Shown: positions 47,616-48,047 of the stretch, one piece after another
How positions within the stretch are numbered: the stretch's first letter is position 1
How the letters are laid out: the number at the start of each line of letters is the position of its first letter
Source: Flavobacteriales bacterium
GTDB lineage: Bacteria; Bacteroidota; Bacteroidia; Flavobacteriales; Flavobacteriaceae
Length of the DNA stretch: 48,047 bases
Reading direction: 5' to 3'
NCBI GenBank assembly: GCA_011524915.1
Contig: WTJH01000008.1
Coordinates: 20,172-68,218, forward strand
Notes under the pieces: model-generated
Told to the model about the DNA's origin: nothing
Databases searched by the model: none
Seen by the model: the letters and a program-made list of their open reading frames with translations, nothing else
Position numbers and translations under genes: made by a program

Positions 47616-47774
47616 CTAATCATCGATCACTATCCAAGGACGAAATTTAGCAGTGAATCCTTTTTTACTGAGCGTGTTATGGGAATAATAGCGTTGGATC
47701 AGATTAGACGTATATCCTGTATAGGTTTTCTGATGCTTAGGACTCCATAATATGTAAACAACAAAAGCAGACAT
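47616..47774 (-). pseudogene. Truncated GIY-YIG nuclease-like ORF (52 aa)
   Basis: MSAFVVYILWSPKHQKTYTGYTSNLIQRYYSHNTLSKKGFTAKFRPWIVIDD*; GIY-YIG N-terminal half intact, C-terminal half missing relative to the adjacent copy. Confidence 0.75.
47625..47710. repeat. 86-bp direct repeat, copy 1 (within truncated GIY-YIG ORF)
   Basis: Differs from 47962-48047 at a single position (gtGaatcc vs gtAaatcc). Confidence 0.95.
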
Positions 47775-47780
47775 TGGGGC

Positions 47781-47809
47781 AAAAAAAAACCTCGGGGATA
47801 CCGAGGTTT
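47781..47809 (-). terminator. Rho-independent terminator after the tRNA-like element
   Basis: Minus strand AACCTCGG-TATC-CCCGAGGTT followed by TTTTTTT. Confidence 0.88.
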
Positions 47810-47814
47810 GTTGT

Positions 47815-47866
47815 AGCGAGGGCTGGACTCGAACCAGCGTCCGCCTATGGCGGATATGAACCCTCC
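47815..47866 (-). other. tRNA-like element: T-arm plus a second hairpin, overlapping the 3' end of the GIY-YIG gene
   Basis: Minus strand GAGGG-TTCATA-[TCCGCC-ATA-GGCGGA]-C-[GCTGG-TTCGAGT-CCAGC]-CCTCGCTA; canonical T-loop TTCGAGT, GAGG/CCTC can close the structure; no D-arm, anticodon arm or CCA seen. Confidence 0.6.
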
Positions 47867-48047
47867 AAAAGATTTTCTTTGATCCATTGCCTTCCTTTGC
47901 CTGATTTCAAAAACTTCTCCCTTTGGCGTGCCTCCGTTTTGGTGTGGTAGACCTCTATATGGATCACTATCCAAGGACGAAATTTAGCAGTAAATCCTTT
48001 TTTACTGAGCGTGTTATGGGAATAATAGCGTTGGATCAGATTAGACG
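47845..48047 (-). CDS. GIY-YIG nuclease superfamily protein, C-terminal part (runs off the right edge)
   Basis: ...SNLIQRYYSHNTLSKKGFTAKFRPWIVIHIEVYHTKTEARQREKFLKSGKGRQWIKENLLEGSYPP*. Confidence 0.85.
   Translation of the reverse strand, partial: SNLIQRYYSHNTLSKKGFTAKFRPWIVIHIEVYHTKTEARQREKFLKSGKGRQWIKENLLEGSYPP
47962..48047. repeat. 86-bp direct repeat, copy 2 (within GIY-YIG gene; may continue past the window)
   Basis: One mismatch to 47625-47710; offset between copies is 337 bp. Confidence 0.95.

Follow-up and report, generated by a model that had tools for sequence, protein, structure and literature searches.

What does it mean for a bacterial nuclease gene to end inside a piece of a tRNA? 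At one edge of the stretch of DNA analysed here (the window, 48,047 nt, G000:C120:20172-68218 of the 2.07-Mb draft genome of a Flavobacteriales bacterium), the minus strand carries the end of a small GIY-YIG gene, a palindrome, a T-arm, a terminator and a second GIY-YIG ORF. The first-pass annotation, made from the sequence alone, had described this series, and we found every part of it at the coordinates as mapped. The question is where the tRNA-like part comes from and why it should keep company with a nuclease.

Anatomy of the window locus

Two GIY-YIG frames, both matching Pfam PF01541 and both incomplete, are spaced 337 nt apart. Copy 1 (47845..48045, minus strand; 66 aa seen, PF01541 at 33.6 bits) is open at its 5' end, its start being lost in a gap of 100 Ns at the window edge, and its frame ends in GKGRQWIKENLLEGSYPP before the stop. 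The stop codon had been placed in the loop of a hairpin, and the TAG (47847-47845) does lie in the loop of the palindrome TCCGCC-ATA-GGCGGA (47840..47854, minus strand), except that one of its bases is the first base of the second arm. Behind it come the T-arm (47822-47838, minus strand) and CCTCGCTA (47814-47821, minus strand), within a segment made up of the T-arm and acceptor 3' strand of a tRNA (47814..47839, minus strand), and then an intrinsic terminator, ACCTCGGTATCCCCGAGG plus T9 (47781-47807, minus strand). Copy 2 (47616..47774, minus strand; 52 aa, ending ..VIDD*) begins with an ATG at 47774, 6 nt past the T-run as had been noted. It breaks off after VID, and no piece of a tRNA follows, so the array in the window ends here.

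Extending the contig to the right, a check that the first-pass annotation had proposed, led across the 100 Ns to an intact initiator tRNA-Met gene (CAT) about 0.1 kb out, upstream in the direction of the genes. Its sequence has the traits of an initiator, a C1 x T72 mismatch and three G-C pairs beside the anticodon loop, and it is the one full-length fMet match in the assembly. The number of units in the gap is constrained only to a series: the flanks fit if the Ns stand for 74 nt + k x 337 nt, where k is a whole number of units. The T-arm and acceptor strand behind copy 1 are identical to those of this tRNA, and the same terminator follows both. The 55 nt of CGCTGGTTCGAGTCCAGCCCTCGCTACAACAAACCTCGGTATCCCCGAGGTTTTT occur exactly twice, once in the tRNA-fMet gene with its terminator and once behind the nuclease stop codon (47839 to 47785), a duplication far beyond chance. 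The T-arm and terminator behind the nuclease come from the host's tRNA-fMet gene, of which they form the displaced 3' half. The terminators at this locus are identical, so foreign and native ends look the same here.

The correspondence reaches back into the coding frame. Aligned to the tRNA, the tail of copy 1 reads GGGTTCATA (47855..47863, minus strand), then the palindrome, then C, T-arm and acceptor, where the intact tRNA reads GGGCTCATA, then ACCCGAAGGT, then C, T-arm and acceptor. The displaced half thus starts in the anticodon arm, of which the palindrome, replacing ACCCGAAGGT, takes the place of the 3' side. In translation, tRNA relic and palindrome give EGSYPP, the residues with which the ORF ends. 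An identical palindrome occupies the identical position in the fMet-targeting elements compared with this locus.

What had been called a tRNA-like structure is therefore real as to its T-arm and acceptor and is a partial copy. ARAGORN (0 genes) and Rfam (0 matches) gave no functional tRNA or tmRNA with complete cloverleaf and anticodon in the window, and we rejected the T-arm fold as a tRNA on these grounds. Rfam likewise had no match to a group I intron RNA core in the window. A defence system was also rejected, as the PADLOC anti-phage defence models gave no match.

Recurrence and association with tRNA genes

Homologues of the nuclease were found in 19 of the 60 relatives searched, often in tandem and adjoining tRNA genes, and the repeating unit proposed from the window, a small nuclease with a tRNA-derived structure and a terminator, recurs with them. 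A profile built from 20 members, most of them tRNA-linked and hence biased to that subfamily, matched 207 of 396 genomes of the phylum at E <= 1e-14, a threshold that also admits relatives not linked to tRNA genes. Taking the best match per genome in 65 genomes, we found 57 in which the GIY-YIG array has a same-strand intact tRNA no more than 74 nt away, these tRNAs representing 11 isotypes (Ser 12, Met 12, Arg 9, Ala 4, Asn 4, Cys 4, Pro 4, Leu 4, Val 2, Phe 1, Asp 1). The other eight are mostly arrays cut by a contig end, members of a longer array, or palindrome-broken tRNA pieces. By comparison, a tRNA was nearby at 7 of 30 lower-scoring control loci, and at a single one of the 18 with 63 bits or less; this drop among low-scoring relatives makes the tRNA association a trait of one subfamily. 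We detected partial tRNA copies at 71 of 76 loci. The outcome named beforehand as counting against a repeating unit, a decayed tRNA standing alone and without relation to other GIY-YIG loci, is thus clearly false. Truncated and stop-bearing nuclease copies also occur among the loci.

Outside Bacteroidota, relatives were seen on contigs of Omnitrophota, WOR-3, TM6, Paceibacterota and Opitutaceae, mostly beside tRNA genes or pieces of them. Carriage by phages or plasmids was rejected, there being no relative in 50,697 phage records and five distant matches only among plasmids. On the WOR-3 contig (L045:1295-1826) the nuclease lies directly 5' of a tRNA with a group I intron (RF00028) in its anticodon region and is preceded by a palindrome-broken 5' tRNA piece; this is the sole intron seen, and it lies beside the element. 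A distant GIY-YIG relative stands three times in tandem at L162 and L187 (G090:C14:42025-43649) with no tRNA within 1.5 kb, and belongs to a separate repeat-forming branch of the superfamily.

Two mirror-image forms and tandem arrays

The 57 tRNA-linked loci fall into two forms. In form A (36 loci), an intact tRNA, often with its terminator, is followed by the nuclease, a palindrome-marked 3' part of a tRNA and a terminator, as in the window. Form B (21 loci) is the mirror image, with a palindrome-marked 5' part of a tRNA, the nuclease and then the intact tRNA, and here the nuclease ORF often stops within the first bases of the tRNA. The other GIY-YIG element in the window's genome is of form B, at tRNA-Ala(GGC) (L004, G000:C172:5117-8332), and its displaced 5' half has the palindrome CCCGCCCGTACCGAACGGCACGTTCGGGCGGG in the D-loop. 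The unit measures about 0.3-0.45 kb, and the nuclease gene of about 80 aa sits inside the tRNA transcription unit. In many form-A loci the start codon lies 0-30 nt past the tRNA terminator (6 nt in the window). A promoter would hardly fit into so short a space, and expression is probably driven from the tRNA promoter.

Head-to-tail arrays of five to eight units occur in four loci (L118, L119, L120, L121), the maximum being at least 8. The array of eight (L118, G111:C34:5000-12000) has upstream of it a tRNA-fMet without its 5' half, and most of its units bear second palindromes in the T-stem region; it reads as an array that has outlived its tRNA.

Empty, occupied and scar alleles

In one genus (g57), for which 20 loci were fetched, the tRNA-fMet locus presents the element in several states. 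It is occupied in L123, L132 and L133 and empty in most genomes, L124-126, L128-131 and L135 among them, and in L127 a scar of palindrome-marked 3' half and terminator is all that is left. The more decayed L134 is perhaps a scar too. Two types of terminator meet at the occupied locus L123: AACACCACTTCAACAAGTGGTG, which the elements in L132 and L121 also have, stands next to the intact tRNA, and AAGCTTCAGAGAAATCTGGAGC, which is that of the empty relatives, follows the displaced half. This is the pattern expected if an element were to import a tRNA 3' half with its terminator and displace the native ones downstream. In L092 and L111 the last unit alone precedes a different terminator, which would be compatible with a foreign inserted end and a native displaced end; foreign and native terminators are distinguishable in only about three loci. 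Some loci hold extra complete copies of tRNA-fMet, with element scars between them.

The palindrome belongs to the element

A perfect hairpin with an arm of at least 6 was present in 87% of partial tRNA copies, whereas the share was 31% in length-matched random segments and 32% in intact tRNAs. Its site depends on the lineage (D-loop, anticodon loop, variable region or T-loop), and in many Arg, Ala and Lys cases it is inserted in the D-loop between A21 and G22. The type of palindrome requires 16 changes on the nuclease tree described below, compared with 39.1 +- 1.8 when shuffled, and different nuclease lineages within one host family have different palindromes. By both observations the palindrome is a property of the element rather than of its host. 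It may block the relic from acting as a tRNA, shield it from cleavage or serve as the nuclease site.

In the fMet group, TCCGCC-n-GGCGGA stands at one fixed place in 16 of the 17 loci compared, and the remaining one, L062, has a two-sided change (TCCGTC/GACGGA). The first-pass annotation had looked to covariation in the stems as a sign of a structured RNA. The palindrome arms are nearly invariant (16/17) and the changes in the T-arm track each host's tRNA, so a separate functional RNA finds no support in covariation.

Several side observations concern these broken tRNAs. ARAGORN called palindrome-broken relics tRNA-SeC or tRNA-Lys in L013:1420-1499, L032:1730-1807 and L098:2661-2741, and elements of this kind may be a cause of false selenocysteine tRNA annotations. 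In an Opitutaceae contig (L052:2734-2995), a pseudo-tRNA-Pro 5' of the nuclease has three different palindromes in its loops.

One palindrome also occurs away from tRNA genes. CCTGCC..GGCAGG, that of several tRNA units, is scattered singly in intergenic regions of many genomes, with 101 copies vs 1 for the control in G350, 85 vs 0 in G409 and 65 vs 0 in G066; dispersal is also strong in G389 and G156, and the five genomes together span 53-101 copies (control 0-1). One copy lies inside a TPP riboswitch (L148:416-520) that still scores above the Rfam threshold. The window's own palindrome shows no genome-wide dispersal, its fMet-type pattern occurring once in the window's genome and, among the 41 genomes of genus g57, in four, at one or two places each.

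Family, phylogeny and selection of the nuclease

The catalytic residues Y7, Y18, G20, R28, H32 and E65 are invariant across 20 members. By sequence profile, the closest solved relatives are the UPF0213 proteins 1zg2 (E 2e-13) and 1ywl (E 7e-12), followed by SLX1 (E 4e-7 and weaker), a structure-specific repair nuclease whose partner is SLX4. Pfam and the member alignment place no extra DNA-binding region beside the GIY-YIG domain in this single-domain protein.

On a maximum-likelihood tree of 88 nuclease proteins, built from 81 columns and with many forks unresolved, the tRNA isotype requires 20 changes, compared with 54.8 +- 2.3 (minimum 48) when shuffled, and the host family requires 35, compared with 51.2 +- 1.8. 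With fewer changes of isotype than of host family, lineages change host family while keeping one tRNA target. All 19 elements first labelled fMet fall in one clade of 21, a 20th member of which, L118, also sits at an fMet relic, and the Asn, Leu and Ser-GGA element groups hold together as well. Seven computable pairs gave a dN/dS of 0.08-0.13 (dS was saturated in three), and at about 0.1 this indicates that the nuclease is under purifying selection.

Discussion

Our findings are best accounted for, with a probability of about 0.78, by a homing-like GIY-YIG element that would target tRNA genes and restore the tRNA half it displaces, the window holding a tandem copy of it. We envisage that the Slx1/UPF0213-like nuclease would cleave tRNA genes of the kind it sits in, or a structure formed by tRNA genes or palindromes, and that the unit would enter when the break is repaired with an element-bearing copy as template. 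The incoming tRNA half would rebuild a working tRNA and leave the host unharmed, while the native half would be displaced and left as a pseudo-tRNA. The nuclease would probably be weakly expressed through transcription from the tRNA promoter, and arrays could expand and contract by recombination between the repeated identical tRNA halves. We call the element homing-like, and do not place it in the I-TevI/SegB family, because it has no extra DNA-binding region. That same feature speaks against the homing-like reading, since recognition of a single tRNA gene is hard to explain for a bare GIY-YIG domain without the DNA-binding part of I-TevI or SegB. It also speaks against this reading that the restored intact tRNA should expose the host copy to self-cleavage.

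A different possibility is that the gene is not selfish and serves the host as a resident repair or recombination enzyme that maintains or amplifies tRNA genes, for example raising their copy number under stress or phage attack. Strong purifying selection would fit such a function too, as would the extra complete tRNA-fMet copies with scars between them at some loci, and phage SegB offers a precedent in which tRNA genes are amplified to the benefit of the phage (PMC13096335). We nevertheless consider this unlikely, given the patchy distribution of the gene (207 of 396 genomes even at a permissive threshold, and 3 of 20 loci occupied in one genus), its truncated and stop-bearing copies, the solo scar, and the fact that a unit usually adds a broken tRNA and not a working one. 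Far less probable is the reading of the first-pass annotation, in which the nuclease mRNA would end in a functional tRNA-like RNA, or in a processing signal, into which the coding end is built. The conserved position of palindrome and T-arm in the fMet elements is in keeping with it, and processing of tRNA-like ends by RNase P/Z-type activities is well known. Yet the tRNA piece lies 5' of the nuclease in the 21 form-B loci, neither a tRNA nor an Rfam match was obtained in the window, the T-arm follows the tRNA of each host, and the palindromes vary in sequence and loop with the isotype. We thus rejected an independent structured RNA as the main explanation, and read the coding end instead as a displaced tRNA-fMet 3' half with an inserted palindrome. 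Three roles had been suggested for the tRNA-like part (target, mobility site or processing signal), among which a target or mobility site fits best. The slimmest prospect is that the loci are remnants of integrase-borne islands, with the 3' fragment as an attR-like repeat and the nuclease as a passenger. Such islands are indeed recognised by a directly repeated tRNA 3' end (PMC9897764). However, the unit is only about 0.3-0.45 kb long, recurs in exact tandem and has room for the GIY-YIG gene only; 5'-half repeats are equally regular, and the palindrome lies within the displaced half. Inspection of the translated frames in the 6 kb around the window locus revealed no integrase, the flanking frames reading as housekeeping genes, and the island origin was rejected for that reason.

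A further idea is compatible with the homing-like element and would add a step to it, namely that the palindrome is itself the mobile part. The GIY-YIG family would cut palindromes in hairpin or cruciform form and spread them, tRNA units being the sources and dispersed palindromes the offspring. We suggest tentatively, regarding it as possible and rather doubtful, that a widespread GIY-YIG class mobilises short palindromes by recognising its own lineage-specific palindrome or a tRNA-gene cruciform as a DNA structure, with tRNA genes as its home; it might then be the enzyme, so far missing, that accounts for the dispersed palindromic repeats of these bacteria. The dispersal of CCTGCC..GGCAGG far above control in some genomes that bear such units points this way, as do the palindrome type following the nuclease clade, the nearest solved relatives beyond UPF0213 being the structure-specific SLX1 nucleases, and a within-family rank correlation between palindrome excess and nuclease count across 396 genomes. 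This correlation is positive but weak (Spearman 0.18) and partly trivial, each unit containing a palindrome that enters the count, and we place no reliance on it. Moreover, G156 has 53 palindromes and no family member at E <= 1e-14, and the single occurrence of the fMet-type pattern in the window's own genome also argues against the added step.

A close parallel is found in fungal mitochondria. Mobile ORFs (mORFs), known from atp6 of Allomyces macrogynus and from atp6, atp9, cox2 and nad3 of Glomus, are free-standing endonuclease genes that insert with a replacement gene end and leave the native end as a relic; the enzyme of the Glomus atp9 mORF is a GIY-YIG protein, and mORF mobility is reported to be biochemically supported (PMC3630166). 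In mORFs too the inserted end is foreign and the displaced end native, and the strategy of replacing an end equals that of the tRNA elements. Unlike the mORFs, which are mitochondrial and affect protein genes at their 3' ends only, the tRNA elements occupy bacterial tRNA genes of many isotypes, use either half, stand in tandem and have a palindrome in the displaced half, and they are presumed to be mobile. Phage SegB resembles the tRNA elements in that a GIY-YIG nuclease gene lies among tRNA genes and has tRNA genes as its target; it differs in being a larger phage protein with a C-terminal region, and is not described as carrying palindrome-broken tRNA halves. In phages T4 and T6 it is a free-standing homing endonuclease of the tRNA gene region that cuts inside tRNA genes and drives tandem amplification (PMC2988022, PMC13096335). 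The SegB motif RAWTSGAAC, GTTCSAWTY on the other strand, resembles, as we read it, the sequence of the tRNA T-loop.

Other known systems share single features with the tRNA elements. The UPF0213 proteins (BH0048, EF2693) and SLX1 are the closest solved relatives by sequence and have a single GIY-YIG domain. Tyrosine-recombinase islands also insert at tRNA genes, restore the tRNA and leave a partial copy (PMC9897764), whereas the tRNA elements have no integrase, measure 0.3-0.45 kb, carry a palindrome, stand in tandem and duplicate 5' as well as 3' halves. REP elements with their RAYT transposases likewise link short dispersed palindromes to a small nuclease gene. There the enzyme is a Y1 HUH transposase, while here it is a GIY-YIG nuclease tied to tRNA genes; a Y1 HUH (RAYT) partner is absent, the GIY-YIG nuclease being the sole gene in the unit. 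The parts considered here of a survey of the GIY-YIG superfamily do not mention linkage to tRNA genes (PMC1564403). In the openly accessible literature that we searched, a scope that leaves subscription papers outside, we found no description of tRNA-linked GIY-YIG units in bacteria. The GIY-YIG tRNA-gene elements thus apparently form an undescribed class of selfish DNA, spread over many bacteria and many types of tRNA.

If this reading is true, the common annotation "GIY-YIG nuclease family protein" would stand for a selfish element specific to tRNA genes, divided into lineages that specialise on one tRNA isotype apiece and leave an essential target intact. The strategy of replacing the end that is displaced would then extend from the mobile ORFs of fungal mitochondria to bacterial chromosomes, and many natural pairs of nuclease and target would be available for study. 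Such elements would also account for false tRNA calls, for example of selenocysteine tRNAs, and for assembly breaks at tRNA genes, and would provide a candidate enzyme for dispersed palindromic repeats whose mobility is unexplained.
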